From Ferribacterium limneticum (lineage in GTDB: Bacteria > Pseudomonadota > Gammaproteobacteria > Burkholderiales > Rhodocyclaceae), in assembly GCF_020510565.1 (NCBI RefSeq), contig NZ_CP075189.1, positions 744,001 through 808,000 on the forward strand: a DNA stretch of 64,000 nt, read 5' to 3'. Shown here one piece after another: positions 726 through 54,577 of the stretch. A model generated the notes under the pieces. It was not told where the DNA came from. It made no database searches and saw nothing but the letters and a program-made list of their open reading frames with translations. The position numbers were made by a program, and so were the translations under genes. Each line of letters starts with the position of its first letter. The first letter of the stretch is position 1.

Positions 726-1483
726 TGCTCGCCAAACGCATCATTCCGTGCCTTGACGTCACGGCTGGCCGTGTTGTCAAGGGCACCAATTTTGTCGGCC
801 TGCGCGATGCCGGCGATCCGATCGAGATCGCCCGCCGCTACAACGAACAGGGTGCCGACGAGGTGACTTTCCTCGACATCACGGCGTCCAGCGATCAGCG
901 CGACATCATCCTGCACATTGTCGAAGCCTGCGCCGAGCAAGTCTTCATTCCGCTGACCGTCGGTGGCGGCGTGCGCAAGGTCGAGGACGTCCGTCGTCTG
1001 CTCAACGCAGGTGCCGATAAGGTGTCGATGAACACGGCGGCGGTGCAGAACCCGGACCTCGTTTTCGACGCCTCGAGCAAGGTTGGCTCGCAGTGCATCG
1101 TCGTCGCCATCGACGCCAAGCAGGTGGCACCCGGCCAGTGGCACGTCTTTACGCACGGCGGCCGCAACGATACCGGCCTCGATACGATTGAGTGGGCGAA
1201 AAAAGTGGCGGCGCTCGGCGCTGGCGAAATCCTGCTGACCAGCATGGACCGCGACGGCACCAAGAACGGTTTCGATCTGGCGCTGACCCGTGCCGTTTCC
1301 GATGCGGTAAGTATTCCGGTCATCGCCTCGGGCGGTGTCGGCAACCTGCAGCATCTGGCCGATGGCGTCAGCGAAGGTCGCGCCGATGCCGTACTGGCCG
1401 CCTCGATCTTCCATTTTGGCGAATACACCGTGCGTCAGGCCAAGGAATACATGGCGGCACGTGGCATCGAAGTGCGACTCTGA
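725..1483 (+). CDS. hisF: HisF, imidazole glycerol phosphate synthase cyclase subunit
   Basis: Cyclase half of IGP synthase; uses ammonia from HisH to turn PRFAR into IGP and AICAR. The 252-residue length is normal. The N-terminus [20 protein letters not shown] carries catalytic Asp11, and VAIDAKQV near residue 130 carries the second catalytic Asp; the phosphate loops ([15 protein letters not shown]) are intact. A longer in-frame reading from 602 is possible, but the ATG at 725 overlapping the hisA stop matches the family start. Immediately after the stop lies a copy of the dispersed 35-bp element, which fills almost the whole gap to hisI. Confidence 0.97.
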
Positions 1484-1516
1484 CGGTCAACCGGAAAAAA
1501 CGCCCAAAATCGAAAT
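1483..1516 (-). repeat. Dispersed ~35-bp element, copy 1 (hisF-hisI gap)
   Basis: The + strand reads ACGGTCAACCGGAAAAAA, then CGCC, then AAAATCGAAAT. The element starts at the last base of the hisF stop codon and runs into the hisI ATG, so any hisI ribosome site must lie inside it. Eight other copies are present in the window. Confidence 0.8.
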
Positions 1517-1913
1517 GGCTGATCTCGACAATTCCCTGGACTGGCTCGCCGCGTTGAAGTGGGACGCCGACGGCATGATTCCGGCCATCGCCCAGGATGA
1601 AAACGGCCGCGTCGTGATGTTCGCTTACATGAACCGTGAGTCGTTGCAGGAAACGCTGCAGTGCGGCAACGCGGTATACTGGTCGCGCTCGAGAAAGCGT
1701 CTGTGGCGCAAGGGCGAGGAGTCGGGGCATTTCCAGAAAATCCGCTCCATTCGCACCGATTGCGACGGCGACGTCTTGCTGTTGAGCATTGAACAAGTCG
1801 GCGGGATTGCCTGTCATACTGGCCGAGAAAGCTGTTTTTTCAATGAATTGAACGGGGACCGCTGGGTTCCCGCTGATCCGGTTCTGAAAGACCCGAAGGA
1901 AATCTACAAATGA
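1515..1913 (+). CDS. hisI: HisI, phosphoribosyl-AMP cyclohydrolase
   Basis: Third step of histidine synthesis, opening the adenine ring of PR-AMP; a zinc enzyme. The 132-residue protein starts [17 protein letters not shown] and carries the family hallmarks [19 protein letters not shown] and the metal-binding cysteines in [20 protein letters not shown]. This is the monofunctional form, with HisE encoded separately, as usual in betaproteobacteria. No clear Shine-Dalgarno precedes the ATG; the upstream 30 bases are the dispersed element, whose CCGGAAAAAA could at best act as a weak site. The stop overlaps the hisE start (ATGA). Confidence 0.96.
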
Positions 1914-2236
1914 GCACCCATGACATGCTGCACCGTCTCTCCGAGACGCTGGCTTCCCGTCGGCACGCCGATCCGGAAAAGTCCTACACCGCCAAGCTCT
2001 TTTCGGAAGGTCCGGATTCGATTCTGAAAAAGATCGGCGAGGAAACTGCCGAGCTGATCATGGCCGCCAAGGATGGCAAGCGCCTGAACATCGTCTGGGA
2101 ATCGACTGACGTCATTTATCACGTGCTCGTTCTGCTCGCCTTCTACGGCCTGAGCATCGAGGATGTTTCGCAGGAAATGCGCCGCCGCGAAGGCATTTCC
2201 GGCATCGATGAAAAGGCTTCCCGGGGCGCCAAGTGA
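1910..2236 (+). CDS. hisE: HisE, phosphoribosyl-ATP pyrophosphatase
   Basis: Second step of histidine synthesis: hydrolyses PR-ATP to PR-AMP and pyrophosphate. A 108-residue all-alpha MazG-like fold. Visible are the metal-site helices [17 protein letters not shown] and [15 protein letters not shown], in which acidic residues of EExxE and ExxD bind Mg. It overlaps hisI by four bases at the start and the following HIT gene at the stop, so it sits in the middle of a tightly coupled operon. Confidence 0.96.
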
Positions 2237-2583
2237 GCGACTGCATTTTCTGCAAGATCGTCGACGGCAAGATTCCGGCGCAGAAGGTCTATGAAGACGA
2301 GGACATCCTCGCCTTCAACGACATCAATCCGGCGCGTCCGGTGCATGTGTTGGTGATTCCGAAAAAACACATCACCTCGCTGGCGACCGCCGCTGCCGAA
2401 GATGCGCCGGTGCTCGGCAAGATACTGGCCAAGGCCAACGAAATTGCGGTAACTCAAGGCAGCCCGGACGGTTTCCGGGTGATCATCAACACAGGACGTG
2501 TGGGGCAGCAGGAAGTGCCGCACCTGCACGCGCATATCGTGGGCGGACCGGATCCGGTTGGCCCCATGCTTAAACGCATTTAG
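2233..2583 (+). CDS. HIT-family nucleotide-binding hydrolase (HinT type)
   Basis: Small histidine-triad hydrolase of 116 residues, the length of bacterial HinT purine nucleoside phosphoramidases. The N-terminus [20 protein letters not shown] is typical, and the catalytic triad motif HLHAHIVGG (His-x-His-x-His) lies near the C-terminus. It starts with GTG overlapping the hisE stop. The position between his genes and tatABC is a common betaproteobacterial arrangement and does not by itself imply a role in histidine synthesis. The exact physiological substrate is unknown. Confidence 0.94.
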
Positions 2584-2593
2584 GAGACACATC

Positions 2594-2827
2594 ATGGGCA
2601 GTTTTTCCATTTGGCACTGGCTGATCGTTCTGGTCATCGTCATGCTTATTTTCGGTACCAAGAAATTGCGTAACGTCGGGCAGGATCTCGGCGGTGCCGT
2701 CAAGGGTTTCAAGGACGGCATGAAGGATGCAACGGCGGGTGACAAGCCGGCCGACGCAGCGCAGCCGACCCAGCAGGTGGGCGGTCAGACCATCGACGTT
2801 GAAGTCAAGGAAAAGACCAAGTCCTGA
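2594..2827 (+). CDS. tatA: TatA, twin-arginine translocase pore subunit
   Basis: Small membrane protein (77 residues) that oligomerises to form the Tat export channel for folded proteins. One N-terminal transmembrane helix (about residues 4-20, [15 protein letters not shown]) is followed by the hinge and amphipathic helix [20 protein letters not shown], the classic TatA signature, then an acidic/polar tail. The ATG at 2594 is preceded by TAGGAGACACATC, a good ribosome site; a longer upstream frame lies inside the HIT gene and is not used. First gene of tatABC. Confidence 0.96.
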
Positions 2828-2873
2828 TCTTCCGGACGGGGTTTCTCCCGTTCCTTGAGACGACTTTCAAATC

Positions 2874-3239
2874 ATGTTCGATATCGGCTTTTCCGAATTG
2901 ATGGTGATCGGCATCGTGGCGCTGATCGTCATCGGCCCCGAGCGCCTGCCCAAGGTGGCACGCACGCTCGGGCACCTGCTCGGCCGCGCCCAGCGTTACG
3001 TTAACGACGTGAAGTCGGACATCAGCCGCGAGGTTCAACTCGACGAGCTGAGAAAACTGCAATCCCAGGTTTCCGAATCAGCCCGCGAACTGGAAAGCTC
3101 GGTGCGCAACGAATATGAAACAGCGCGCAGCGCGATCGAGGCGCCGGCCAAGGAGGCCGCCGCCGAGTTGCAGTCGACCGCTGCCTCGCTGAGCGAAACC
3201 CTGCCGGTCGCTGAAACCATTGGCAAGCCGGCGGCATGA
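2874..3239 (+). CDS. tatB: TatB, twin-arginine translocase receptor subunit
   Basis: Works with TatC to bind twin-arginine signal peptides. The 121 residues begin MFDIGFSELMVIGIVALIVIG, one transmembrane helix, then GPERLPKVARTLGHLLGR, the TatB-specific hinge with Glu and Pro, followed by a long charged amphipathic helix and an Ala/Glu-rich tail. The stop overlaps the tatC start (ATGA at 3236-3239). Confidence 0.95.
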   Translation: MFDIGFSELMVIGIVALIVIGPERLPKVARTLGHLLGRAQRYVNDVKSDISREVQLDELRKLQSQVSESARELESSVRNEYETARSAIEAPAKEAAAELQSTAASLSETLPVAETIGKPAA

Positions 3240-4063
3240 GCGAACCCCAGGAAGACTCTTTCATCTCCCATCTGGTTGAGCTGCGCGATCGTTTGATGCG
3301 CAGCCTGATCGCCATCGCGGTCGTCCTTGGTGTCCTGTGCATCTATCCGGGGCCGGGGGAAATCTACGACATCCTCGCCGCGCCGCTGACCAAGGCCTTG
3401 CCGGAAGGCACCAAGATGGTCGCCATCGGCGTCATCACGCCGTTCATGGTGCCGCTCAAGGTCACGGCCATGGTCGCTTTCGTGCTGGCCTTGCCGTTCA
3501 TTCTTTTCCAGGTCTGGGGCTTTATTGCCCCCGGTTTGTATGCCCATGAAAAGCGTCTGGGGATTCCGCTGATCATTTCCAGCACCTTCCTGTTCGTTTC
3601 TGGCATGGCCTTCTGCTACTTCTTCGTGTTCGGGCAGGTGTTCAGTTTCATCAGCAGCTTTGCGCCGAAGAGCATTACGCCGGCGCCAGATATCGAAGCC
3701 TACCTGTCCTTCGTGATGACCATGTTCCTGGCCTTCGGTCTGGCCTTCGAGGTGCCGGTGGCGCTCGTCATGCTGGTCAAGCTCAACGTCGTGACCGTTG
3801 AAAAGCTCAAGGAGTGGCGTTCCTACTTCATCGTCGGCGCCTTCGTCGTGGCGGCCGTGGTGACGCCGCCCGATGTCGTTTCCCAGTTGGCTCTGGCCAT
3901 CCCGATGTGCCTGCTTTACGAGTTGGGCATCCTGGCTTCGCGGCTGGTGTCGCGTCCTGCACCGGTGGAGGCGACTCCCACGGTCAACCCGGAAAATGAC
4001 GCAAAAATGGAATCCGAAATGGACAAGGCGGAAGAAGAGTTCCGCAATCTGTCCAAGGACTGA
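3236..4063 (+). CDS. tatC: TatC, twin-arginine translocase core subunit
   Basis: Six-helix inner-membrane core of the Tat system that recognises the twin-arginine motif. The 275 residues contain SFISHLVELRDRLMRSL at the N-terminus and the FxxExPV-type FGLAFEVPVALVMLV segment. The C-terminal cytoplasmic tail (from about residue 235) is longer than in E. coli, and residues 249-260 (TVNPENDAKMES) are encoded by a slightly degenerate copy of the dispersed element. The stop is directly adjacent to the stop of the convergent amidotransferase gene, with no spacer. Confidence 0.95.
   Translation: MSEPQEDSFISHLVELRDRLMRSLIAIAVVLGVLCIYPGPGEIYDILAAPLTKALPEGTKMVAIGVITPFMVPLKVTAMVAFVLALPFILFQVWGFIAPGLYAHEKRLGIPLIISSTFLFVSGMAFCYFFVFGQVFSFISSFAPKSITPAPDIEAYLSFVMTMFLAFGLAFEVPVALVMLVKLNVVTVEKLKEWRSYFIVGAFVVAAVVTPPDVVSQLALAIPMCLLYELGILASRLVSRPAPVEATPTVNPENDAKMESEMDKAEEEFRNLSKD
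3980..4015 (-). repeat. Dispersed ~35-bp element, copy 2 (degenerate, inside tatC)
   Basis: Reads ACGGTCAACCCGGAAAATGA on the + strand, then CGC, AAAAATGG. Compared with the other copies it has one extra C in the core and a less regular A-tract, and it lies in the variable C-terminal tail of tatC. The weakest of the nine copies. Confidence 0.55.
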
Positions 4064-4867: not shown

Positions 4868-4870
4868 GGC

Positions 4871-6025: not shown

Positions 6026-6038
6026 GGAAATTGTCTCG

Positions 6039-6785: not shown

Positions 6786-6823
6786 GTCGTCCCGGGGTTT
6801 GCCGGGAAAGCGGCAACACCCGA

Positions 6824-6858
6824 TTTCAATTTTGGCCAAAAATTCCGGTTGACCGTGG
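6824..6858 (+). repeat. Dispersed ~35-bp element, copy 3 (between NIF3 and FimV-like genes)
   Basis: Reads TTCAATTTTGGCC, AAAAATT, then the core CCGGTTGACCGT. It lies in the 134-bp gap between two convergent genes. In this copy the T-rich arm forms a short palindrome, TTTTGGCCAAAA. Confidence 0.8.
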
Positions 6859-6919
6859 CAATGACGGCTGGCGGCATGGAACGCGAAAGCGAGACTGGCT
6901 CGCCCCGGCTTCTACTCGG

Positions 6920-7945: not shown

Positions 7946-8059
7946 CCGGTGTTCTATGTCAATTGGTTTTCGGGTGGCGAAACTTTATCACCGGGCTGGC
8001 CGGGTACGGGTGAAATGTTGCACACTTTCAGCCCTGATCACCGACCGTGGAGCTTTCCC

Positions 8060-8761: not shown

Positions 8762-8766
8762 GGCGT

Positions 8767-8790
8767 GAAACCCCGCGCTGGCGGGGTTTC
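8767..8790. terminator. Bidirectional hairpin between FAA hydrolase and paaK
   Basis: Perfect 10-bp stem GAAACCCCGC/GCGGGGTTTC with a GCTG loop, in the 40-bp gap of two convergent genes. The stem itself starts with AAA and ends with TTT, so it could act on both strands, though no long T-run follows. Confidence 0.65.
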
Positions 8791-8801
8791 AGTTGCCTGC
8801 C

Positions 8802-10097: not shown

Positions 10098-10171
10098 TAT
10101 TCTCTCCCTCTGGAACCGCGAATTCTGAAGCGGCAGCCGGGGAGGGCGGTTGAGGCAGATCAACTACGCCC

Positions 10172-10208
10172 GTTTTTAATTTTGGCCCATTTTTCCGGTT
10201 GACCGTAG
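10172..10208 (+). repeat. Dispersed ~35-bp element, copy 4 (between paaK and MATE genes)
   Basis: Reads TTTTTAATTTTGGCCCA, TTTTT, then CCGGTTGACCGTAG. It lies in the 179-bp divergent gap upstream of both paaK and the MATE gene. Confidence 0.8.
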
Positions 10209-10276
10209 CAAGCCCGGTTGGCCGGGGAAACCGGCCGGCGGGGCCGACTGGCCGCGTTATGCGACAATCCTGCCCC

Positions 10277-11753: not shown

Positions 11754-12914
<1,161 letters not shown>

Positions 12915-14593: not shown

Positions 14594-15550
14594 GTGGCCT
14601 TGTTTCTTTCGGAAAATGACGTAAAAAACCTGTTGACCGTGGAAATGGCGCTTGAGGCAGTCGAGTCCGCACATCGCGACCTGGCCAGCGGTCAGGCCAT
14701 CGATACCCCGCGGGCGCGCAGCCGCCTGCCGCAGACGGTGCTCCATATCTTGCAGGGGGCGCTCCCGGCGCAGGGCGTGATCGGCTACAAGGCGTATACC
14801 AGCAACAAGAGCGGCAACCGTTTTCTGGTCCATCTGTTTGATGCTGCGACCGGGCGGCTCAAGGCCGTTATCGAGGCCGACTATCTGGGCATGATCCGCA
14901 CCGGTGCGGCGAGCGGTGTCGCGGCCCGCTGGCTGGCCCGGCCCGATGCCAGCGTGGCCGGTGTGTTCGGCGCTGGCTGGCAGGCCGAAGGCCATGTCCG
15001 GGCAATCTGCGCCGCCTTGCCGCTCGAACGTGTCAAGGTATTCAGCCGCAAGGCCGACAAGCTGCAGGACTTCTGTCGGCGCATGAGCGAAACGACAGGT
15101 GTTGCCGTCGAGCCAGCCGAAAGCGCCGAGGAAACGGTGCGCGGCAGCGATCTGATCGGGACGGTGACGACGGCGGCGCTGCCTTTGTTTGATGCCGCAT
15201 GGTTGGAACCCGGGGCACACGTCAATGCCGCCGGATCCAATTCACTGATTCGCCAGGAGCTGTCCGAGGCGGCCGTCAGGCGCTGCGACCTCATCACTGT
15301 CGATGCTGTGCCGACGGCGCTGGCCGAGGCTGGTGATCTGTTGCCCTTGCTCGAGAAAGGCCGACTGCATGCCCGGCAATTAGTGGAGCTGGGCGAGGTG
15401 ATTGTCGGGCGTCATGCCGGACGGACATCGGTGGAGCAGATCACGCTGTTCGAGTCGCAGGGGATGGCCATTCAGGATCTTGCTGTCGCGCTGCGGGTGC
15501 TGGCCGCCGCCGAGGCCAGCGGGCTGGGTCAGCCCATACCGATGGAATGA
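14594..15550 (+). CDS. Ornithine cyclodeaminase / mu-crystallin family protein
   Basis: 318-residue NAD(P)-dependent enzyme of the OCD family. The Rossmann motif VFGAGWQAEGHVRAI (near residue 127) and family stretches YKAYTSNKSGNRFLVHLFD and GMIRTGAASGVAARWLA are present. Start is GTG at 14594. The family covers ornithine cyclodeaminase, alanine dehydrogenase and ketimine reductases; sequence alone does not decide between them. It follows TerC by 9 bp and may share its transcript. The last codons overlap a small open frame that bridges to the PP2C gene. Confidence 0.88.
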   Translation: MALFLSENDVKNLLTVEMALEAVESAHRDLASGQAIDTPRARSRLPQTVLHILQGALPAQGVIGYKAYTSNKSGNRFLVHLFDAATGRLKAVIEADYLGMIRTGAASGVAARWLARPDASVAGVFGAGWQAEGHVRAICAALPLERVKVFSRKADKLQDFCRRMSETTGVAVEPAESAEETVRGSDLIGTVTTAALPLFDAAWLEPGAHVNAAGSNSLIRQELSEAAVRRCDLITVDAVPTALAEAGDLLPLLEKGRLHARQLVELGEVIVGRHAGRTSVEQITLFESQGMAIQDLAVALRVLAAAEASGLGQPIPME

Positions 15551-18193: not shown

Positions 18194-19780
18194 ATGGAAA
18201 CTTCCGACGATCTGTTTCGCCGTTTGGAACAACTCAACGACATCGGTGCCTCCTTGTCCAGCGAGCGCAACATCAAGCTGCTGCTCGAAAAGATTGTTCT
18301 CGCCGCCAAGCAGATTACCCGGGCCGATGGCGGCACGCTTTATCTGCTCTCGGACGACCGGCGCCATCTGCATTTCGAAATTGTCCGCACCGACTCCCTG
18401 CATCTGGCCTTCGGCGGTTCCAGCGATCAGCCAACCTCGGGCAAGTTCCCGGACCTGCCGCTTTATCGCGATGACGGTTCGCCCAACGACTGCATGGTCG
18501 CCGCCTATGCCGCCATAACCGGCAAGACGGTCAATATCGCCGACGCCTATAGCGCCGAGGGATTTGATTTTTCCGGTACGCGCCAGTTCGACGCGCGCAC
18601 CGGCTATCGCTCGCAATCCTTCCTGACCGTGCCGATGAAGGACCACGAGGGCGAAATCATCGGCGTGCTGCAACTGATCAACTCACTCAGTCCAACGGAT
18701 GGGGCGGTCAGCGAATTCTCCCAGGCCGACCAGCGCCTAGCCGAATCGCTTGCCTCGCAGGCCGCCATCGCCCTGAGCAACCGGCAACTCGTCCAGCAAC
18801 TCGAAGCGCTTTTTGAGTCCTTCGTCAAACTCATCAACCTGGCCATCGACGAAAAGTCGCCCTACACCGGCGGCCACTGCCAGCGAGTGCCGGAGCTGAC
18901 CATGATGCTCGCCGAAGCCGCCGACGCCACCCGCGAAGGTCCGCTCGCTGATTTCAAGCTGACCGACAAGGACCGCTACGAACTGCGCATCGCCGCGCTG
19001 CTGCACGATTGCGGCAAGGTCACGACGCCGGTGCACATCGTCGATAAAGCCACCAAGCTGCAAACCATTTACGACCGCATTCATCTCATCGACACGCGTT
19101 TTGAGGTCGTCAAGCGCGATGCCGAAATTCGTAAATGGAAAGGCATCGCCGAAGGGGTTCCGCCGGCCGAAGCAGAGCGAATCTTTTTTCATTTTTGCCA
19201 AAAAATTCCGGTTGACCGTGGGATTCTGCATCGCGCCAATATCGGCTGCGAAAAAATGTCCGATGACGACATCGGGCAGGTCCGGCGAATCGCTGCCGAG
19301 TATCGCTGGCGCAACGCCGACGGAGAGGAAGTGCCATTCCTCAGCGACGACGAACTCGAAAACCTGACCATCCGCTCCGGCACTCTGACCCGAGCCGAGC
19401 GCGACATCATCAACCACCACATCGTCGCCACCATCAAGATGCTCGAACAGCTACCGTGGCCGCGACACCTCAAAAACGTCCCCGAATACGCCGGCGGCCA
19501 TCACGAACGGATGGACGGCAAAGGCTACCCCAAAGGCCTCAAGCGCGAAAACATGAGCTGGCAGGCCAGGATCATGGGCATCGCCGATATCTTCGAAGCG
19601 CTCACCGCCAAGGACCGGCCGTACAAGGACGGCATGAGGCTCTCTGAAGCACTAGTCATCCTCGAACGATTCAGCCAGAACGGCCATATCGACCCGGCTC
19701 TGCATGAAGTTTTCATCAGCAGCCAGGTTTACCGCCGATACGCCAGCGCTTTCCTGAAAACTCATCAGGTTGACTGCTGA
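18194..19780 (+). CDS. GAF and HD-GYP domain protein (c-di-GMP phosphodiesterase type)
   Basis: 528 residues. N-terminal GAF sensor domain (about 10-195), then an HD-GYP domain with the metal motif LLHDCGKVTTP and the defining GHHERMDGKGYPKGL. HD-GYP enzymes cleave c-di-GMP. The segment between HD and GYP motifs is about 130 residues longer than in minimal HD-GYP domains; within it residues 331-342 (FFHFCQKIPVDR) are encoded by a copy of the dispersed element. It follows the MBL-fold gene by 16 bp. Active-site residues look intact, so catalysis is expected. Confidence 0.9.
   Translation: METSDDLFRRLEQLNDIGASLSSERNIKLLLEKIVLAAKQITRADGGTLYLLSDDRRHLHFEIVRTDSLHLAFGGSSDQPTSGKFPDLPLYRDDGSPNDCMVAAYAAITGKTVNIADAYSAEGFDFSGTRQFDARTGYRSQSFLTVPMKDHEGEIIGVLQLINSLSPTDGAVSEFSQADQRLAESLASQAAIALSNRQLVQQLEALFESFVKLINLAIDEKSPYTGGHCQRVPELTMMLAEAADATREGPLADFKLTDKDRYELRIAALLHDCGKVTTPVHIVDKATKLQTIYDRIHLIDTRFEVVKRDAEIRKWKGIAEGVPPAEAERIFFHFCQKIPVDRGILHRANIGCEKMSDDDIGQVRRIAAEYRWRNADGEEVPFLSDDELENLTIRSGTLTRAERDIINHHIVATIKMLEQLPWPRHLKNVPEYAGGHHERMDGKGYPKGLKRENMSWQARIMGIADIFEALTAKDRPYKDGMRLSEALVILERFSQNGHIDPALHEVFISSQVYRRYASAFLKTHQVDC
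19184..19220 (+). repeat. Dispersed ~35-bp element, copy 5 (inside HD-GYP gene)
   Basis: Reads TTTTTTCATTTTTGCC, AAAAAATT, then CCGGTTGACCGTG. It is read in frame as FFHFCQKIPVDR without a stop, in the insert between the HD and GYP motifs. Confidence 0.8.
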
Positions 19781-20066: not shown

Positions 20067-20438
20067 ATGAAGAACGTTCAAAAAGGTTTTACCCTGATCG
20101 AACTGATGATCGTTGTCGCCATCATTGGTATTCTGGCTGCCATTGCACTGCCGCAATATCGTGATTACACCCAGCGCTCCGCCAACGGTGCATGCGAGGC
20201 CGAGGCGAAGTCTTATATGAGTTCGGCGGTTGCTCTTTTGGCTAACAATGAGAATGCACCGGCTTTCGCTAACTCCGCCTGCCTTGCACTTGCCGCCGCC
20301 CCGACTATTCAGAACTATGCAGACAATGCCCCTATCACCTTCACGCCGCAAACGCGTGGCAACGCCGCTATTATCAGAACTACTACCTGTAACTCTGGTT
20401 CAAGTACTTGCGTCTTGAATGCTGTCGCCGCTCCCTGA
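20067..20438 (+). CDS. pilA: Type IV pilin, major-pilin type (PilA-like)
   Basis: 123-residue prepilin. The leader MKNVQKG is cut before Phe by PilD; the mature N-terminus [20 protein letters not shown] with Glu5 is the canonical N-methylated pilin helix. The globular part has four Cys, with a C-terminal pair ([10 protein letters not shown]) suited to the D-region disulfide. AAAAGGAGATTCAA is a strong ribosome site. A sigma-54-like promoter is upstream and an intrinsic terminator follows, so it is probably transcribed alone. Used for twitching, attachment or DNA uptake. Confidence 0.93.
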
Positions 20439-20735
20439 TGCTGAGTAGCATAGATAAATAGGGGTTAGCCCTTATTTAGAAAAAGCCGGGGTAGATGCTC
20501 CGGCTTTTTTTAGGCGTCGATTTGGTTTTTCTGCCGTCAATGGAATATTTTCGTGTTTGATCTGACCATCGCTGCAAGCCAAATGGTTAAGTTCTGCTTT
20601 CTGCTAGTCCGTGCTGTTAGCACCCGATGCGGCGTTCATGATTCCAGGCCTGACTCTCGAACGCCTACTCAGCGCTGTTTGAAACAAGTGCAGCAGTATT
20701 CGGAATTCGAGATATGTCCTTGGGGGGGCATCCAC
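20439..20735. other. 297-bp gap between the two pilin genes
   Basis: Beyond the terminator of the first pilin (20481-20511), nothing decisive is seen; TGGTTAAGTTCTGC at 20583-20596 is spaced one base short for a sigma-54 site. A strong ribosome site for the second pilin ends the gap. Confidence 0.45.
20481..20511 (+). terminator. Intrinsic terminator after first pilin
   Basis: Stem AAAAGCCGG/CCGGCTTTT with a 10-base loop, continuing into a T-run of seven. It lies about 40 bp after the pilin stop. Confidence 0.88.
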
Positions 20736-21083
20736 ATGAAAACGATGCAGAAAGGTTTTACTCTGATCGAACTGATGATTGTGGTTGCGATCATTGGAAT
20801 TCTGGCAGCCATCGCAATCCCCCAATACCGAACTTACATCGAAAGATCAGCGGATGCCGCCTGCTTGGATGAGGCAACGGCCGTGGCCCGCAGTGCTGCT
20901 GTTGCCGGGGCGGCGAACGACACTACCTTGTTGTTTCCCGTTGTCTTGCAATCATGCAACTCAACCGGCGCGTCGCCGACAACTATTGCCGAAGCACAAA
21001 ACGCCGATGCAACATTCAGTTCCAGTAGAGGCGTAAGGACTGTTCACTGTAATTTCTCTATTGGTACCTGTAACCTGCAGTAA
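20736..21083 (+). CDS. Second type IV pilin
   Basis: 115-residue prepilin with leader MKTMQKG and mature helix [20 protein letters not shown], identical to the first pilin over this stretch, but a different globular domain ([20 protein letters not shown] onward, C-terminal pair HCNFSIGTC). A TTGGGGGGGCATCCAC ribosome site precedes the ATG at 20736; an upstream in-frame extension to 20553 would bury the prepilin leader, so it is rejected. No RpoN site is evident upstream. A paralogue from tandem duplication followed by divergence, possibly a specialised or minor pilin. Confidence 0.9.
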
Positions 21084-21153
21084 AGGGCTGGCAGGTTTGG
21101 GTGACGGTAAGGGGCACATGGCGCCAAGTTTTGAACCTTAAGAAGGTTGTTAC

Positions 21154-21190
21154 TACGGTCAACCGGGAAAAACGGTAAAAATTAAAATCT
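21154..21190 (-). repeat. Dispersed ~35-bp element, copy 6 (between pilin and CYTH/CHAD genes)
   Basis: The + strand reads TACGGTCAACCGGGAAAAA, CGGT, AAAAATTAAAAT. It lies in the 131-bp gap between two convergent genes; the core has one substitution (GGG for GGA). Confidence 0.78.
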
Positions 21191-30967: not shown

Positions 30968-31735
30968 ATGCAAATCAAGGACAAGGTTTTTCTGGTAACC
31001 GGCGCGGGTTCTGGTCTGGGCGCAGCGACGGCGAGTGCTTTGGCGGAAGCAGGGGCGAAGGTGGTGCTGGTCGACCTGAATCGTCAGGCTGGCGAAAAGA
31101 TGGCGGCAGACTTGGGCGCGAATACCTGTTTTGTCGAAACCGATGTGGCGAATGAGGTTTCTGCGGTCAACGCGATAAATACGGCAATTTCGAAATTTGG
31201 CGCGCTGCATGGCCTGGTGAACTGCGCCGGCGTGGCTCCTGCCGAGAAGGTGCTTGGCAAGGAGGGGCCACATCGGCTGGAGAGCTTCGCCAAGGTGATT
31301 AATATCAATCTGGTCGGTACTTTCAACATGATCCGCCTGGCGGCTGATGCCATGATGAAGCATGAGCCGGATGTCGGTGGCGAGCGTGGCGTGATTATTA
31401 ATACCGCGTCGGTTGCCGCTTACGAAGGCCAGCTCGGTCAGGCCGCCTACGCTGCTTCGAAGGGCGGCATCGTCGCGCTGACCTTGCCGGTTGCCCGCGA
31501 ACTGGCGCGTAGTGGCATCCGCTGCATGACGATCGCACCGGGCATCATGGAGACGCCGATGCTGCTCGGCATGCCGCCCGAGGTGCAGGACTCGCTGAAC
31601 AAAATGGTGCCGTTCCCGACACGTATGGGCAAGCCGGCCGAGTACGCCGCACTGGTCAGGCATATCGCGGAGAATGCCTACCTCAATGGCGAAGTCATCC
31701 GGCTGGATGGCGCCATCCGGATGGGCGTCAAATAA
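30968..31735 (+). CDS. Short-chain dehydrogenase, 3-hydroxyacyl-CoA dehydrogenase type-2-like
   Basis: 255-residue classical SDR. Cofactor loop [18 protein letters not shown], acidic DLNRQAG choosing NAD(H), NCAGVAP, and the catalytic Ser in [11 protein letters not shown], Tyr and Lys in [11 protein letters not shown]. The C-terminal [16 protein letters not shown] resembles HSD17B10-type 3-hydroxyacyl-CoA dehydrogenases. Start at 30968 behind CAGGAGAGAGTGGC. Ends in a tight UUCG-loop terminator, so it is transcriptionally separated from the cbb3 locus downstream. Confidence 0.9.
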
Positions 31736-31790: not shown

Positions 31791-34229
31791 ATGCCCTCCG
31801 CTTCCTGTTATCACTGTGGCCTGCCGATTCCCGACGATGTCGATCTGTCGGTAAAAATCGACAGCGAGCCGCGGGCCATGTGCTGTTTCGGCTGCCAGGC
31901 GGTTGCGCAATCGATTGTCGATAACGGGCTGGCGGACTACTACCGTAGCCGCGACGCGATGCCCGAGTCGCCGCGCGAAGCGATGCCGGCGATCCTCGAT
32001 CAACTGGTCATGTACGATCACGCCGAGTTCCAGAAAAGCTTTGTCAAGGAGCTTGGGCAAAACGAGCGCGAAGCTTCGTTGCTGCTTGAGGGCATCACCT
32101 GTTCCGCTTGTATCTGGTTGAACGAACAACATGTCGGCCGCTTGCCCGGCGTGACGGCGGTCAATATCAATTACACGACCCGCCGGGCGCGCGTGCGCTG
32201 GGACGAAACCCGCATCAAGCTCTCGGATATTCTCGGCGCCATCGCTGCCATCGGTTATCGCGCCTACCCGTACGATGCGGCCAAGAACGAGGAAATCTCC
32301 CGCAAGGAACGGCGCGACGCCATGTGGCGCCTGTGGGTCGCCGGCTTCGGCATGATGCAGGTGATGATGTACGCCTATCCGGTCTATATCGCCGACGGTG
32401 ATATGGCGCCTGACATCGAAAGCCTGATGCGCTGGGCCAGCCTGTTGCTCACTGTGCCGGTCATTTTCTATTCCTCGGCGCCGTTCTTCCGCAATGCGTG
32501 GCGCGATATCAAGCTGCGCCGGGTCGGCATGGATGTGCCGGTGGCGCTTGGCGTCGGTGCAGCTTTTGTTGCCAGTTGCTGGGCCACCTTTGTGCAGGCC
32601 GGCGAGGTCTATTTTGATTCGGTCACGATGTTCATCTTCTTCCTTCTTGGTGGCCGCTATCTGGAAATGACGGCACGCCAGAAGGCGGTCAGCGTGACGG
32701 AAGCGCTAGCTAGGCTGCTCCCGGCGTTTGCCCAAAAAATGCCAAAATTTCCGGTTGACCGTGACACTGAACAATGTGTTGTCGCCGACCTGCGTCAGGG
32801 TGACTACGTCATGGTTCGGGCTGGCGATATCGTCCCCGCCGATGGGCGAGTGATCGAAGGCGTTAGTTGTGCCAACGAGGCTTTGCTGACGGGCGAGAGC
32901 AAGCCCGTGCCAAAGTCGCCCGGCGAGCCAGTCACCGGCGGTTCAATCAATGCCGAGAGCCCGCTGGTTGTGCAGGTCGAGCAGGTCGGCGAAGGTACAC
33001 GGCTGTCGGCCATCATTCAGTTGATGGAGCGGGCCGCCGCTGAAAAGCCGAAAATCGTTGTGCTGGCGGATCGTATCGCCAGCTATTTCGTCGCGGCGCT
33101 GCTTGCCGTGGCAATTCTTGTCGCGGTTGGCTGGTATTTCGTCGATCCCTCGAAGGCGTTGTGGATCACCGTTTCGGTCCTCGTCGTTACTTGCCCGTGC
33201 GCCCTGTCGCTGGCGACGCCGATTGCGCTGACCGTATCGGCGGGGGCGCTAGCCAAGGACGGCCTGCTGGTAACGCGCGGGCATGCCATTGAAACCTTGG
33301 CCAGAGCAACCCATTTTGTCTTTGATAAAACGGGTACCTTGACGACTGGGCACATGCATCTGGTAGACGTCTTTCCGATGGCTGGAGCAAGCCGGGAGGA
33401 GTGCCTCGTCATCGCCGCCGCCCTCGAACACGCCTCGGAACACCCGGTAGCATCCGCCCTGCGTCAGGCGGCAGGAGAGCAATTGCTTGAAACATCCGAG
33501 GTGGTCAGCGAGCCCGGGCAGGGCATCGAGGCGCTCGTTGCCGGTCGTCGTTGCCGCATCGGTCGCCCGGACTATGCACTCGCGCTGAGCGCCGCCAAAC
33601 TGCCGGATGCCGCCCTTGACTGGCTGGAAAGCGGCGATACCGTTGTTGTGCTCGCAGATGAAAACGGTTGCTTGGCACTGTTCCGGATCGGCGACGAGTT
33701 GCGCCATGAGTCGGCGGCCTTGATCGCGGAACTTAGGGCGGCGGGAAAAAAAGTGATTCTGTTGACTGGCGATGCGCCAGCAGTGGCTAATCGTGTTGCC
33801 AGCAAGCTGGGAATCACCGACGTTCGGGCGGGTGTTACTCCGCAGGGCAAGCACGATTGTGTCACCGGCCTTCAGGCGGAGGGGGCCGTTGTTGCCATGC
33901 TCGGCGATGGTGTCAATGACGCGCCGGTTCTGGCTCTGGCACAGGTTTCCGTCGCCATGGGCGGGGGCGCACAACTGGCCAGAACACAGTCTGATTTCAT
34001 TCTTCTCTCCGAAAACCTGGATCACCTGCGTCACGGTTTGCGGCGGGCCCGGAAAACCCTGCAAGTGATCCGCCAGAATCTCTGGTGGTCCTTCGCGTAC
34101 AATTTTGTTGCTCTGCCATTGGCTATAACGGGCTACGTAACTCCTTGGATTGCCGGCATCGGCATGTCGGCCAGTTCGTTGCTGGTTGTCCTCAATTCAC
34201 TGCGCATTCAGCGTGTGGAGACAGATTGA
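31791..34229 (+). CDS. ccoI: CcoI/FixI, copper-translocating P1B-type ATPase for cbb3 assembly
   Basis: Delivers copper during maturation of the CcoN subunit. 812 residues: N-terminal Cys cluster (CYHCGLPIPDD, MCCFGCQAV), a ferredoxin-like metal-binding domain (GITCSACIWLNEQ), eight transmembrane helices, CPC ion motif (VTCPCALSLATP), phosphorylation DKTGTLTTG, HP motif EHPVAS and hinge GDGVNDAPVLA. The ATG at 31791 has no Shine-Dalgarno and directly follows a terminator hairpin. Residues 314-325 (AQKMPKFPVDRD) are encoded by the dispersed element, in the loop entering the actuator domain. Overlaps ccoS by one base. Confidence 0.94.
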   Translation: MPSASCYHCGLPIPDDVDLSVKIDSEPRAMCCFGCQAVAQSIVDNGLADYYRSRDAMPESPREAMPAILDQLVMYDHAEFQKSFVKELGQNEREASLLLEGITCSACIWLNEQHVGRLPGVTAVNINYTTRRARVRWDETRIKLSDILGAIAAIGYRAYPYDAAKNEEISRKERRDAMWRLWVAGFGMMQVMMYAYPVYIADGDMAPDIESLMRWASLLLTVPVIFYSSAPFFRNAWRDIKLRRVGMDVPVALGVGAAFVASCWATFVQAGEVYFDSVTMFIFFLLGGRYLEMTARQKAVSVTEALARLLPAFAQKMPKFPVDRDTEQCVVADLRQGDYVMVRAGDIVPADGRVIEGVSCANEALLTGESKPVPKSPGEPVTGGSINAESPLVVQVEQVGEGTRLSAIIQLMERAAAEKPKIVVLADRIASYFVAALLAVAILVAVGWYFVDPSKALWITVSVLVVTCPCALSLATPIALTVSAGALAKDGLLVTRGHAIETLARATHFVFDKTGTLTTGHMHLVDVFPMAGASREECLVIAAALEHASEHPVASALRQAAGEQLLETSEVVSEPGQGIEALVAGRRCRIGRPDYALALSAAKLPDAALDWLESGDTVVVLADENGCLALFRIGDELRHESAALIAELRAAGKKVILLTGDAPAVANRVASKLGITDVRAGVTPQGKHDCVTGLQAEGAVVAMLGDGVNDAPVLALAQVSVAMGGGAQLARTQSDFILLSENLDHLRHGLRRARKTLQVIRQNLWWSFAYNFVALPLAITGYVTPWIAGIGMSASSLLVVLNSLRIQRVETD
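32730..32764 (+). repeat. Dispersed ~35-bp element, copy 7 (inside ccoI)
   Basis: Reads GCCCAAAAAATGCC, AAAATTT, then CCGGTTGACCGTGA. Same reading frame as copy 5, giving the shared peptide PVDR. Confidence 0.78.
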
Positions 34230-40233: not shown

Positions 40234-40881
40234 ATGCTGATTCGTGCCATAGTCATTTCCGTTTTGTTGCATGTGGTGATCCTGGTGTCGCCGAATTATC
40301 TTGGCGAACTGGCTCGGACAGCGCCTGACGGCGATGGAGTGAGCGCCTTGAGTGTGGTCATTGCCTCTCAGCGCGGGATTGATTCGCTTGATCCCGGAAT
40401 TCGCAAGGCTGCGATGATCAAAGCTCGGGCTGCCGTTCGAGCTCCCGACGCACCACCCAAATCAACAGCAGAAAATTTCAATTTTGGCCCATTTTTCCGG
40501 TCGACCGTAGAGCCTGCTGTTTCCGGAGAGGCGAGGTCGGATCGCTCGCTTGAGGTGACTCCGATTGATGTGCCAGTGGCCTCAGTTGAGGAAATTGGGC
40601 GGTATCGATTGAACGTTGCACGGAGCGCCCGCCAGTTCAAGGTCTATCCCCCTCTGGCTCGGGAGAAGGGGTGGGAAGGCGTGGTCCAGGTCTCGGTTTC
40701 CATGCCAACAGGACAGGGGACCCCGATGGTCTCGCTGGTTAACTCATCCGGTTACGAATTACTTGATTCCCAGGCGCTTGAAATGGTTACGCAGGCGGTC
40801 AATCTGGCGGTTTTGCCGGAGGGCATGCGGGGCCGGCGTATGGCGATTTCCTTGCCGGTGGAATACCGCCTCGGCGACTGA
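40234..40881 (+). CDS. TonB-family energy transducer-like protein
   Basis: 215 residues: N-terminal membrane anchor (MLIRAIVISVLLHVVILVSP, with the SxxxH-type His typical of TonB), a linker, and a C-terminal TonB domain (about 125-213) with YPPLAREKGWEGVVQVSV and a final SLPVEYRL. Residues 81-92 (NFNFGPFFRSTV) in the linker are encoded by the dispersed element. The usual Pro-rich spacer is weak and no ExbBD or TonB-dependent receptor is adjacent, so its partner is unknown. Confidence 0.8.
   Translation: MLIRAIVISVLLHVVILVSPNYLGELARTAPDGDGVSALSVVIASQRGIDSLDPGIRKAAMIKARAAVRAPDAPPKSTAENFNFGPFFRSTVEPAVSGEARSDRSLEVTPIDVPVASVEEIGRYRLNVARSARQFKVYPPLAREKGWEGVVQVSVSMPTGQGTPMVSLVNSSGYELLDSQALEMVTQAVNLAVLPEGMRGRRMAISLPVEYRLGD
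40475..40510 (+). repeat. Dispersed ~35-bp element, copy 8 (inside TonB-like gene)
   Basis: Reads ATTTCAATTTTGGCCCA, TTTTT, then CCGGTCGACCGTAG, with one change in the core. Read in a different frame from copies 5 and 7. Confidence 0.8.
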
Positions 40882-44096: not shown

Positions 44097-44108
44097 GCGA
44101 AGCCGGCG

Positions 44109-44132: not shown

Positions 44133-44182
44133 GCATTCAATTTTCGGCCTTCCATTTGTAGGGGCCGAGATCAGGGGGTGGC

Positions 44183-46528: not shown

Positions 46529-46543
46529 ATTGAGGAGCAAGAG

Positions 46544-47044: not shown

Positions 47045-47072
47045 CGCGCAGCCCTCATTCAGGAGCCGTAGT

Positions 47073-49769: not shown

Positions 49770-49794
49770 AACGACAGGTTCATAGAGAAAAACG

Positions 49795-52700
49795 ATGCGA
49801 AACAACCAGCCTGTGACCGATGTGGAACTTGAGCTTGATGAGCTCACCCTTATTGCCTCGAAGACTGACCTCAAGGGACAGATTACCTATGTCAACAAAG
49901 CATTCATCGACATCAGTGGATTTTCTGAATCCGAGCTGATTGGACAGCCACACAATATTCTCCGTCATCCGGACATGCCGTCCGAGGCCTTTGCCGATCT
50001 TTGGCGGGATATCAAGGATGGCCGTCCGTGGACCGGAGTTGTCAAGAATCGCTGCAAGAATGGGGACTATTACTGGGTTCTCGCCAACGTAACGCCGTTG
50101 CGTGAAAACGGTGCCGTGGTTGGTTTTCTATCCGTACGCCGGAAGGCGAGTGCACAGCAGATTTCAGCTGCTCAGGCGGTGTACGCCGAGATTCGTGAGA
50201 AACGTGCGGGGGGCAAGGAGATTCGCCACGGCAATGTGGTTAGTGGTGGGCCGGTAGGCGTCCTGCGTCGCTGGATATCCAATGCATCGTCCTCCAAAAA
50301 AATCGTGCTGGGGATGTTGCTGGGGTTCGGCATCATTCTTGGTGGCGCGACCACGTTGCTCGGGAATCATTTGGCGACCCTGCTTGATGCTCAGGGGCGC
50401 GAAAGTCTGAGAAATAATGTGGGTCTGATCAAGGCCATGGTTGAGACGAACCTCGTGGCTCTGCGCAAAGAGGCCATTCAATTGAACCGTGGCTTTGCCA
50501 TGTCGTTTCAGGATGAGATCGTTCTTGAGGGGACTGACGAGCTGGCAGTGTTGCGGCTGGCGAGAGGGGATGTCCTCAATGGAAAATTCGACATAGTTGA
50601 TCGTTTCACTGAAAAAACAGGTGCGGTCTCAACCATCTTCATTCGCAAGGGTGATGACTTTACCCGGATATCAACCTCGGTCAAAAAAGAGAATGGCGAG
50701 CGTGCCGTTGGTACAAATCTGGCCAAGGATCATCCAGCACTGGCTGAGCTATTAGCCGGGAAGCACTATGTCGGACGCGCCAACCTTTTTGGCAAAGCTT
50801 TCTACACGAGCTATACGCCAATCCTTGCAAAGAACGGCACGGTGATCGGAGCGACGTTTATCGGGCTCGATATCTCGACAGAGCTGGAGGTGCTCAAGAA
50901 GCAGATTCGCTCGCTGAAGGTCGGGGAAACCGGTTACTACTATGTGCTTGATGCCAGCCCGGGCAAGGATCTGGGCAATCTCGTCGTCCACCCGGCCAAA
51001 GAGGGGGGCAATGTTCTCGGCGCCAAGGATGCAAGTGGCCGTGAGTTCATTCGCGAAATGCTGGAACGTGGCAGCGGTGATATCAGCTATCCATGGCTCA
51101 ATACGGAACTGGGTGATACGGTTACCCGGGAAAAAATTGTCGTATTCGATAGCTTGCCCGATGCCAAGTGGCTGATTGCCGGTGGCACGTATCTGGAGGA
51201 GTTCCACGCCCTGTCCAGCCAGGTGACACGCTTCGTCATGGTGGGGGGGCTAATTCTGGCGTTGCTGCTTGCGGTCTTCCTTTATCTTTTGATATCAAAG
51301 CTGATCGTCCGGCCGCTCCAGCAAAAAGTCCTGCCGGTATTTAACGATCTGGCGGAGGGGCGATACGATACCCCATTGGATGTCGGGGCAAACGATGAGG
51401 TCGGCCAGGTTCTGCAGGGCCTGCAGTCAATGCAGATTCAACAGGGATTCAATGTTGCCGAGGCACAGCGAATCGCCAATGACAATCTTCGTATTCGCAT
51501 TGCGCTGGATTGCGTTTCGGCCAATCTGCGGATTGCCGATGACGATGGCACGGTAATCTACGCCAACAAGGGCTTGCTGACGACCTTGCGCCAGATCGAG
51601 CCTGGTCTGCGTGAGCAGCAGCCGGGTTTTACGGTTGACGGGTTTGTCGGGAGCAATATCGGGGCGTTTTATCAGGATCCGGAGGCAGCCCTCAAGAGCT
51701 TGCGTGAACTGCAGGGTACGCGCCAGAGCGAGCTCGGTATCGGTCGTCGGATCTATAACATCATTACCAACCCGATCGTTAACGAGCGGGGTCAGCGCCT
51801 TGGCACAGTGGGCGAATGGGTTGATCGCACCGCAGAACTGAATGCGCAGCGCTCGGTAGCGGCGCTCGTCTCACAGGCTTCGGCCGGGGATCTCGAGGCC
51901 CGCCTGGACACCTCGACGCTGGAAGGGTTCTACAAGGAACTAGGAACAGGCATCAACAGCCTGGTTGAAACCAGCGGGGCGGCAATTGGCGAGATTGCCA
52001 ATCTTTTGTCCCGCGTGGCCGATGGCGACCTGACCCAGACGCTCACCAGTTCATACCAAGGGACCTTTGGCCGCTTGCGTGATGATGCCAACCAGACAGT
52101 GACCAAGCTACGTAATCTGGTCGGCGAGATTCAACAGTCGGCCCAAACGATCAATACGGCCGCCAAGGAAATAGCATCGGGCAACCAGGATCTGTCGGGG
52201 CGGACGGAGCAGCAGGCGAGCAGTCTCGAAGAGACGGCTTCGAGCATGGAGCAGCTGACCAGTACGGTGAAGCAGAATGCCGACAACGCACGTCAGGCCA
52301 ACGAGTTGGCCGGTGCGGCACAAAAGGTTGCCGACAAGGGGGGCGAGGTCGTCGGCCAGGTCGTCCACACGATGAGCGCAATCCATCAGTCGAGCAGCAA
52401 GATCGCCGACATCATCGGGGTGATCGACGGCATTGCCTTCCAGACCAATATCCTAGCCCTCAACGCGGCCGTCGAGGCAGCGCGTGCGGGTGAACAGGGG
52501 CGTGGTTTTGCCGTGGTGGCCACCGAGGTGCGCAATCTGGCCCAGCGCAGCGCCGCTGCAGCGAAGGAAATCAAGGGGCTGATCTCTGATTCGGTTGAAA
52601 AGGTCGAAACGGGTAACAAACTGGTCGATCAGGCGGGACGGACGATGGAGGAGGTCGTGGCGAGCATCAAGCGCGTGGCCAAGATCATGGGTGATATCTC

Positions 52701-53019
52701 CGATGCCAGTAGTGAGCAAAGCGCGGGTATCGAGCAGGTCAGTTTGGCGGTAAGCCAGATGGATGAGGTGACGCAGCAGAATGCGGCGCTCGTCGAACAG
52801 GCTGCGGCGGCTGCGGAGAGCCTGGAAGAGCAGGCGCATCAACTGGCGATGACCGTCTCGGTTTTTCGAATTGCCGAGAACAAGGAGCCTTCCCGTCTGA
52901 CGTCGCCACAGCGCCGTATCCAGCATGCAGCTGCCTCAACAACCAATAGCGAGCGGCCTCGCGCCCCAAAGGCGCCGGCGCAACAGGTCAGTCTCGACGA
53001 TGAGTGGGAGGAGTTCTAG
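49795..53019 (+). CDS. Large chemoreceptor with N-terminal Aer-type PAS, Cache and second PAS
   Basis: 1074 residues. The cytoplasmic N-terminus is an Aer-like PAS domain (about 18-120; [52 protein letters not shown]). Next a transmembrane helix near 170, a periplasmic Cache region (about 195-465), a second helix near 480, HAMP, another PAS (about 560-680), HAMP-like linker and the MCP signalling hairpin. The C-terminus DDEWEEF is a CheR/CheB tether. The Aer-type PAS suggests redox/energy sensing; flavin binding is not shown. It and the CZB receptor share a nearly identical signalling tip. Confidence 0.92.
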
Positions 53020-53021
53020 TC

Positions 53022-53924
53022 ATGGTTGATTTTCGCAATCCTGTACCACCTGCGTCGACGCTTCGATCGTCCTTGTCGGCCGGCCTGCCAGCGCGTGACG
53101 GCAGCGCGCGGGAATTCACGTTTTCAACGACCGATTTTGAACGGGTCCGCAAACTGATTTATCAGCACGCTGGCATTTCGTTGTCGCCGGTCAAGCAGGA
53201 CATGGTGTATTCGCGCCTGGCGCGACGTCTGCGTGCTACGGGCATGCCGTCTTTTGCCGCCTATCTCGACGGCCTGGAGCGTAATGGCGGCGACGAGTGG
53301 GAGCGCTTCGTCAATTCGCTGACGACCAACCTGACCTCGTTTTTCCGCGAACCGCATCACTTTCCGATATTTGCCGACCATCTGCGCAAGCTCGGCACCA
53401 AACGGCCGGTCCGGGTGTGGTGTTCGGCCGCGTCGACGGGCGAAGAACCGTACTCGATTGCGATAACTGTGGCGGAAACCTTTGGCGCCAATGTTTCGCA
53501 CATTTCTATCGTGGCCTCTGATCTCGATACCAATGTGCTGGCGACGGCCGAGAAAGGGGTTTATCCAATCGAACGGGTTGAAAAACTCTCGCCTGAACGC
53601 TTGCGTCAATTCTTTTTGCGCGGCACCGGCAGCCAGGAGGGTTTTGTCTCGGTTCGTCCCGAACTGAAGCGGATGGTGTCGTTTCAGCGGATCAATCTGC
53701 TGGATGCCAATTATTCGGTCAAGGGGCCGCTTGACGTCATCTTCTGCCGAAATGTCATGATCTATTTCGACAAGCCGACGCAGTACAAGATTCTGTCGCG
53801 CTTCGCCCCGATAATGCAGCCCGATGGCCTGATGTTTGCCGGCCATTCGGAGAGCTTCCTGCATGCTGCCGATCTTTTCAAGTCACAGGGCAAGACGGTC
53901 TATGCCCTGGCAAATGCCCGATAG
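53022..53924 (+). CDS. cheR: CheR receptor methyltransferase
   Basis: 300 residues: N-terminal CheR helical domain (FERVRKLIYQHAGISLSPVK) and the SAM-binding domain with RVWCSAASTGEEPYSIA, ASDLDTNVLATAEKGVY and LDVIFCRNVMIYFD. Methylates receptor glutamates; both receptors upstream carry C-terminal tethers for it. Start at 53022 two bases after the receptor stop; a start 18 bases earlier would overlap. Confidence 0.96.
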   Translation: MVDFRNPVPPASTLRSSLSAGLPARDGSAREFTFSTTDFERVRKLIYQHAGISLSPVKQDMVYSRLARRLRATGMPSFAAYLDGLERNGGDEWERFVNSLTTNLTSFFREPHHFPIFADHLRKLGTKRPVRVWCSAASTGEEPYSIAITVAETFGANVSHISIVASDLDTNVLATAEKGVYPIERVEKLSPERLRQFFLRGTGSQEGFVSVRPELKRMVSFQRINLLDANYSVKGPLDVIFCRNVMIYFDKPTQYKILSRFAPIMQPDGLMFAGHSESFLHAADLFKSQGKTVYALANAR

Positions 53925-53936
53925 GGAAGGGGCTTG

Positions 53937-54542
53937 GTGCAACATTCCTACGACGAGCAACTAGCCAGCAATCGATATTTCGATCGAAAGTTCGGCCTTG
54001 AGGCCGCCAAGATATTGCCGGGCGAGTACTTTGTTTCCAGCACGGAGGCATTGCTGGTGACGGTGCTCGGCTCCTGTGTCGCTGCTTGTATTCGAGATCC
54101 GGATTTGGGCATTGGCGGGATGAATCACTTCATGTTGCCAGATGATGGCGGCAGGAGCCCGCTCGGCATGTCAGCCCGCTATGGCACCTATGCCATGGAG
54201 GTGTTGATCAATCATCTGCTCAAGCTCGGGGCTCGACGCAACCGTCTCGAGGCCAAGGTGTTTGGCGGTGGAGCCGTCCTGGCCAGTCTGGCGAGCAGCA
54301 ATGTCGGCGCCAAGAATGCGGAATTCGTACTGGATTTCCTGACAACGGAAAAGATTCCCGTTGTCGCCAAGGACTTGCTGGATTCATATCCGCGGAAAGT
54401 CTATTATTTTCCGCATTCAGGGCGCGTTCTGGTCAAGAAGCTGCACCGGGTTCATAACGAGACCTTGTTCAGCCGCGAAAACGATTACAAGGTACGCCTG
54501 AGCGGCTCCACCATCGAAGGCGATGTCGAATTGTTCGTTTGA
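53937..54542 (+). CDS. cheD: CheD chemoreceptor glutamine deamidase
   Basis: 201 residues. The deamidase Cys is in VLGSCVAACIRD, and the family stretches GGMNHFMLPDD and KVFGGGAVLASL are present. The GTG at 53937 fits the strong GGAAGGGG ribosome site better than the TTG three bases earlier. Its last stop base abuts a copy of the dispersed element. Confidence 0.95.
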   Translation: MQHSYDEQLASNRYFDRKFGLEAAKILPGEYFVSSTEALLVTVLGSCVAACIRDPDLGIGGMNHFMLPDDGGRSPLGMSARYGTYAMEVLINHLLKLGARRNRLEAKVFGGGAVLASLASSNVGAKNAEFVLDFLTTEKIPVVAKDLLDSYPRKVYYFPHSGRVLVKKLHRVHNETLFSRENDYKVRLSGSTIEGDVELFV

Positions 54543-54577
54543 TACGGTCAACCGGAAAAAAGCGCCAATTTTGAAAT
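54543..54577 (-). repeat. Dispersed ~35-bp element, copy 9 (cheD-cheB gap)
   Basis: The + strand reads ACGGTCAACCGGAAAAAAG, CGCC, AATTTTGAAAT. It starts right after the cheD stop and fills most of the 53-bp gap to cheB, as copy 1 does between hisF and hisI. Confidence 0.8.

Follow-up and report, generated by a model that had tools for sequence, protein, structure and literature searches.

The 64-kb window analysed here (the whole stretch of DNA under study, bases 744001–808000 of the single 4,150,051-base contig of Ferribacterium limneticum, a genome of 4.15 Mb) contains 11 copies of a 40-bp motif, AtTgCCACGGTCAACCGGAAAAAAnGGCCAAAATTGAAAT, which recurs throughout the genome. With a probability of roughly 0.78, this motif marks a third, independent uptake-sequence system beside the DNA uptake sequence (DUS) of the Neisseriaceae and the uptake signal sequence (USS) of the Pasteurellaceae, uptake itself being a prediction from genome data. 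The fuller proposal also appears probable, at slightly lower confidence: in the Dechloromonas/Azonexus genus, a recognition of self-DNA serving natural transformation that evolved independently, is built on a palindromic core and phased A/T tracts, has split into two or more clear dialects (one a near-perfect dyad) and has left traces of import across dialects. An uptake sequence had been suggested in an initial annotation of the window, and the USS-like architecture, the dialects and the depletion of sites around integrases all fit that suggestion.

The information profile of the motif spans about −6 to +34, with little signal past that. It comprises GA.T.CC, the palindromic core ACGGTCAACCGG, an A-tract (+13 to +18), GGCC (+20 to +23), AAAATT (+24 to +29) and GAAAT (+30 to +34), where the last tract is AAAT at +31 to +34; the succession of core, A-tract, GC spacer, AAAATT and GAAAT described in the initial annotation is thereby borne out. 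Both main A/T tracts lie on the same side of the core, with centres near +15.5 and +26.5 and hence 11 bp apart. The palindromic core would suggest a symmetric or two-fold receptor contact. Similarity among copies is limited to about 40 bp, and no common flank is found outside. In three copies (L115:12834, L126:11622 and L209, the last near paaK in genome G207) the same 18-bp stretch, GTTTACTACGTGAAACGT, stands between core and A-tract, with one base different in G207; it bears what we take to be a faint resemblance to a ParB site.

A 17-mer composed of core plus tract, ACGGTCAACCGGAAAAA, matches the window 10 times at up to three mismatches, as opposed to 0.10 expected from shuffles. The 11 window sites were found with a 40-bp matrix at a score threshold of 16; they correspond to the nine copies of the initial annotation, all of which the two scans located where they had been placed, and two degenerate copies with cores at 14629 and 31163. 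The tenth 17-mer match, at 51118, falls below the matrix threshold. Across a 464-kb sample, consisting of the window and 20 stretches taken at mostly regular steps, the matrix, which was trained on 99 sites from this same sample, finds 106 sites and none in the reversed sequence. Exact cores in the sample (62) outnumber those with one mismatch (37, control 8), and two mismatches show no excess (77, control 88), which amounts to a sharp consensus.

The exact core occurs 462 times in the host genome (228 forward, 234 reverse; reversed-pattern control 4 and 0), without orientation bias (P 0.82), and 736 times when up to one mismatch is allowed (367 + 369; reversed control 66, 30 + 36). The 17-mer is found 424 times and its reversed control not at all. 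The several hundred copies guessed in the initial annotation are therefore present, rather than fewer than 50, and they are not restricted to one region of the replicon, as all 20 sampled 20-kb stretches hold at least one matrix match. Both strands carry sites between 1.04 and 3.0 Mb, and the G-rich strand of the respective stretch carries 45 of the 106 sites, which indicates no clear strand polarity. Linkage of copies to a transposase with target duplications was not seen, although no systematic search for it was made.

The placement of sites relative to genes was derived from a crude gene finder of our own, by which about 17% of the sequence is intergenic. Since some genes were missed (tonB, hisI and the pilins of the window), the intergenic share of 55 sites, as opposed to 51 coding sites, is an upper estimate. 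Site density per kb amounts to 1.39 in convergent gaps, 0.62 in tandem gaps, 0.53 in divergent gaps and 0.13 in genes; intergenic sites reach a mean matrix score of 54.5, coding sites one of 41.1, and 44 of the 62 exact cores are intergenic. Enrichment in convergent gaps would also be expected of a transcription terminator or regulatory element, and in G147, a genome with a second dialect described below, when 30 palindromic sites were each folded twice, 82% came out more than 4 kcal/mol better than their shuffles, compared with 12% of random segments. The D1 sites of the host (D1 denoting the host's own dialect) are, however, near random in this respect, with 21% and 27% of 62 sites on the two strands exceeding 4 kcal/mol and 15% of random segments doing so, and a terminator function of D1 sites is thus not supported by folding. 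Half of the sites are moreover genic, and in tandem gaps the motif is oriented with the genes in 17 cases and against them in 13. A terminator or regulatory role is, on this evidence, scarcely credible.

Sites are sparse around integrases. Ten matches to tyrosine integrases were found, three of which were dropped: two strong-scoring ones that presumably are Xer recombinases and one below the cut-off, whose sampled stretch (L123) holds one site only. The 12 stretches flanking the remaining seven matches, at six places, contain 26 sites in 240 kb, as opposed to 54.8 expected (P 1e-5). Six of these stretches, picked for having 0–2 sites, were annotated, and four of them revealed mobile-element genes (a YqaJ recombinase with a recombination-directionality-like protein, a D5-type primase, TraG and a phage tape measure); these four, chosen after the counts were known, hold 2 sites in 80 kb compared with 18.3 expected. 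In another of the six, a single site occurs together with a gene for a type I restriction methylase. In a viral scan, contigs were not enriched for the motif, two containing the exact 17-mer and six its reversal. Two IMG/VR pieces of 11–12 kb (L317 and L318) each hold two D1 matrix sites with scores of 37.7–55.1 and could be contigs of prophages that include host DNA.

Among the genomes sampled, D1 enrichment is confined to one genus, that of Dechloromonas agitata, in which 11 of 76 sampled genomes are D1 genomes. Exact cores number 357–462 in nine genomes of the genus, 192 in G218, 97 in G184 (76% complete), 40 and 45 in G193 and G204, and at most 30 in the rest. In a family sample of 150 genomes, none outside the genus lies clearly above its own control for the core, and of 399 genomes sampled from the order, none of the 393 that lie outside the genus has more than a single copy of the 17-mer (four have one). 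A five-gene tree of one region across 21 genomes, used in place of an earlier eight-gene tree that gave an odd placement of some genomes, groups the 11 D1 genomes together.

Other genomes of the genus carry related forms. In k-mer counts, a second dialect (D2), CACGGTCGAC, occurs 126 times in 400 kb of G147 as opposed to 2.6 expected; genome-wide it reaches 886 copies in G147 and 943 in G201 (control 20 each), 471 in G156 and 300 in G205, with controls spanning 11–25, and a smaller excess is seen in most other genomes of the genus, including the host (127, control 9). In G147, D2 sites frequently take the form of long palindromes around GGTCGACC, flanked by tracts left and right, and so form a near-perfect dyad. 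A weaker third form, GCGGTCGAC, provisionally termed D3, occurs in G152, G153 and G155 at 26–34 copies per 100 kb compared with 4–7 expected. In samples of 100 kb, no comparable form was found in G150, G154 and G112, and G062 showed a slight excess of TGCGGTCAAC only. At the place of the motif upstream of paaK, the D1 motif is present in most D1 genomes, in some degenerate, and G062, G152 and G154 have CGGTCGACCGG instead.

Dispersed short motifs with dedicated reader proteins, some of them palindromic, are also known from chromosome organization, namely matS, parS and the FtsK-orienting polar sequences (KOPS), which are regional or strand-polar. The motif could accordingly be the binding site of a chromosome-organizing or segregation protein (nucleoid-associated or parS/matS-like) that reads the CGGT-ACCG palindrome as a dimer. 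The palindromic core, the near-perfect dyad of G147 and the spread of sites along the chromosome are compatible with such a site, and newly acquired elements would lack it too. In contrast to matS, parS and KOPS, however, the motif is neither regional nor strand-polar in the 464-kb sample. Moreover, 51 of the 106 sites lie inside genes, convergent gaps exceed divergent ones more than twofold in density, the one-sided A/T tracts would have no evident role, and genome G168, within the D1 clade, does without the motif. A shift of dialect within one genus, together with at most one copy in each of the 393 order genomes outside it, would be unusual for a core function. A chromosome-protein site is therefore considered unlikely, and the nucleoid-protein site that the initial annotation offered as its alternative is less likely than an uptake sequence.

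Orthologous loci illustrate how sites come and go. Between cheD and cheB, the motif is present in seven of nine other D1 genomes and degenerate in two, and it is lacking in all 11 non-D1 genomes, whose spacers are mostly of similar length, which indicates gain by substitution; G191 was left out of this comparison as its best match is a paralogue. The site at 19208, within the open reading frame (ORF) 18194–19780, is shared by five other D1 genomes, and three non-carriers have other codons and no indel in the motif, again pointing to substitution (the row of G165 is a misplaced match and was disregarded). The site at 6845 is common to five other aligned D1 genomes and is not found in the rest. 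At hisF/hisI, the motif represents a unit insertion of about 33–36 bp in G000, G196, G207, G165 and G218; it is lacking in four D1 genomes and in seven non-D1 genomes, the latter with a compact junction, and G191 is cut there. The same place in L036 (Dechloromonas sp. Dech2017) has the motif with GGTCGACC. The inserted element (1477–1516) makes up the spacer from the hisF stop to the hisI start, and the inferred hisI start is ATG with the element and GTG in most relatives without it. From the comparisons at these loci it follows that sites turn over. A clear ancestral state is available at three of them, with gain by substitution at two and by insertion at one.

The insertion at hisF/hisI, the compact junctions of the seven non-D1 genomes and a consensus as sharp as that of a young repeat would suit a small mobile or repetitive extragenic palindromic (REP)-like element that copies itself. 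Such an element is nonetheless very improbable, given the substitution origin at cheD/cheB and in ORF 18194–19780, where no matching insertion is found, the 51 sites held by genes and the shared length of only about 40 bp without a common flank.

Movement of sites with imported DNA may be recorded in G112, a non-carrier with 10 copies of the 17-mer, where five matrix sites lie within 11.4 kb. In this block, which was picked after the cluster had been seen, the two longest pieces show 87–91% and 90–93% identity to D1 genomes, as opposed to 78–89% for the other pieces and 80–84% for the his-tat region. For one piece, identity is also 88% in G157 (baseline 80%), 83% in G150 (baseline 80%) and 79% in G154 (baseline 79%). 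Because G157 and, slightly, G150 are likewise closer than their baseline, slow evolution may explain part of the closeness of the block, which, judged by its sequence, may otherwise be a trace of DNA import across dialects.

Components of DNA import are present. ComEC, one of the com gene products named in the initial annotation, was found above the cut-off in 68 of the 76 genus genomes, including the host, where it is a single open frame of 833 residues. The host has 16 N_methyl pilin matches, one of them a ComP_DUS protein (88 bits), and the ComP_DUS pilin family is present in all 31 genomes tested and in none of 14 controls. As a candidate dialect receptor, the ComP_DUS pilin was aligned across 29 of the 31 genomes (G192 has no locus and G204 was dropped) and was rejected, since it does not match the dialect. 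The neighbouring minor-pilin region (L240, L277–L296) varies strongly between close relatives in gene sequence and order, as if cassettes were swapped. ComEC matches in G150, G157, G158, G181, G193, G195, G202 and G220 consist of same-strand pieces about 20–64 kb apart, with breaks that recur, for the most part, near profile positions 145, 163 and 590 in motif carriers and non-carriers, as if large elements inserted repeatedly into comEC in this genus. The ComEC of G168 (G168:C1:1958422-1959913), the genome within the D1 clade that is almost without the motif, looks frame-shifted.

The USS and DUS motifs are unrelated to each other. According to part of a 2025 paper, the Neisseriaceae and Pasteurellaceae are the only families known to select DNA by sequence at uptake (PMC12616744). 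Excerpts of another paper describe the USS as a rigid core with two A/T segments on one side, spaced by about a turn of the helix (12 positions in Haemophilus), without orientation bias and with a preference for non-coding DNA despite many genic copies; they name a surplus of exact over near-copies as a hallmark of USS and DUS, unlike regulatory sites, and describe the DUS as lacking flanking motifs (PMC1626085). The present motif resembles the USS of Haemophilus influenzae in its core with two one-sided A/T segments about one turn apart (11 bp here, 12 positions in the USS), in the absence of orientation bias, in the surplus of exact over near-matches and in its non-coding preference with many genic copies. 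Unlike the USS, its core is palindromic and unrelated to AAGTGCGGT, its host is a betaproteobacterium, and it occurs at about 0.23 per kb rather than about 1 per kb. The inner USS core GCGGT is found only in provisional D3, maybe by chance, the cores of D1 and D2 reading ACGGT.

With the DUS, the motif shares a core of 10–12 bp, dialects that differ by few bases within a related group, a ComP_DUS-family pilin in the genome and sparseness on mobile islands, where under-representation of the DUS serves as a marker in the portion of the literature drawn on (PMC7371117). The palindromic sites of G147 resemble the dyad of overlapping DUS pairs described for Simonsiella in an excerpt of PMC3630211. 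In contrast, its core letters are unrelated to GCCGTCTGAA, its consensus contains no DUS core letters with inner CTG, A/T tracts flank it, and the ComP_DUS pilin does not follow the dialect as the DUS receptor ComP would suggest. The motif thus shows most of those uptake-sequence traits that can be computed, though not the expected density, and matches neither known family by letters. A keyword search of the open-access literature found no report of an uptake sequence for this genus, and matches to the motif strings were unrelated, judged by title.

Several observations weigh against an uptake sequence. The density of 0.23 copies per kb is about a quarter of that of known uptake systems, and site counts in the 20 stretches (mean 4.75, variance 2.41) give a weak signal of regular spacing (P 0.04). 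One of the integrase-flanking 20-kb stretches, L236, contains just one site and has core-like genes (clpX, lon). With one copy, G168 lies inside the D1 clade of the five-gene tree as sister of G218, and the gain at hisF/hisI took the form of a unit insertion. The near-palindromic dialect of G147 and the palindromic D1 core are also compatible with a DNA-binding protein that acts as a dimer. The ComP_DUS pilin falls into markedly different subtypes among D1 genomes, and the minor-pilin region near it, compared in 21 genomes, likewise does not track the dialect and varies strongly among D1 genomes; because of these strong differences, neither has the appearance of a dialect-specific receptor. 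Finally, uptake or competence experiments for these bacteria were not found in the open-access literature by keyword.

Within the window, the initial annotation had inverted the strands relative to ACGGTCAACCGG: of its nine copies, those with cores at 1483, 3980, 21155 and 54544 lie on the plus strand and the other five on the minus strand. Its division into five intergenic and four genic copies is right for these nine. The intergenic copies comprise 1477..1516 (+, score 54.1; orthologous comparison) in the gap between the hisF stop and the hisI start, 6823..6862 (−, 61.6; core 6845, also in five other D1 genomes) in a convergent gap after a Nif3-like gene, 10173..10212 (−, 58.3; core 10195) upstream of paaK beside TTGATCTGCCTCAA, 21149..21188 (+, 50.6) in the gap of convergent pilin and CYTH/CHAD genes (Pfam), and 54538..54577 (+, 52.3; compared with 20 other genomes) directly 3′ of the cheD stop and before cheB. 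Two tandem type IV pilin genes (N_methyl; 20067–21083) lie just upstream of the copy at 21149..21188. The genic copies are located in the C-terminal tail of tatC (3974..4013, +, 49.8; one-base variant core; NCBIfam), within ORF 18194–19780 (19186..19225, −, 52.1; built by substitutions), within a cation-transport P-type ATPase ORF (32729..32768, −, 32.8; Pfam) and within a TonB-like ORF, tonB (40475..40514, −, 51.1; Pfam), where the core is the G variant GGTCGACC. The two degenerate copies absent from the initial list both lie within ORFs, one at the start of an ornithine-cyclodeaminase-like ORF (14607..14646, −, 27.5; NCBIfam) and one at 31157..31196 (+, 33.2).

For the proposed uptake sequence, a mechanism can be outlined in which the palindromic ACGGTCAACCGG core would be bound by a DNA receptor on the cell surface, probably one of the minor pilins; for the USS, an excerpt of PMC12616744 names ComN/PpdA as a receptor candidate. 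The phased A/T tracts would help stiff DNA bend into the secretin pore; for the USS, strand separation at the tracts is thought, in an excerpt of PMC7811141, to aid DNA kinking. Import would proceed by pilus retraction and ComEC, and recombination of the preferentially imported fragments would let copies accumulate wherever the genome tolerates them, by molecular drive.

The genus consists largely of free-living bacteria. If the reading as an uptake sequence is true, it would be a third lineage that chooses its own DNA by sequence, an ability known so far in two families, and would offer independent tests of why uptake sequences evolve and of whether the phasing of A/T tracts is a general need of the pore. 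As the dialects lie within one genus, the way in which a receptor changes in step with hundreds of genomic sites would become testable, and the dialects would mark the import of DNA, revealing who takes it up from whom.

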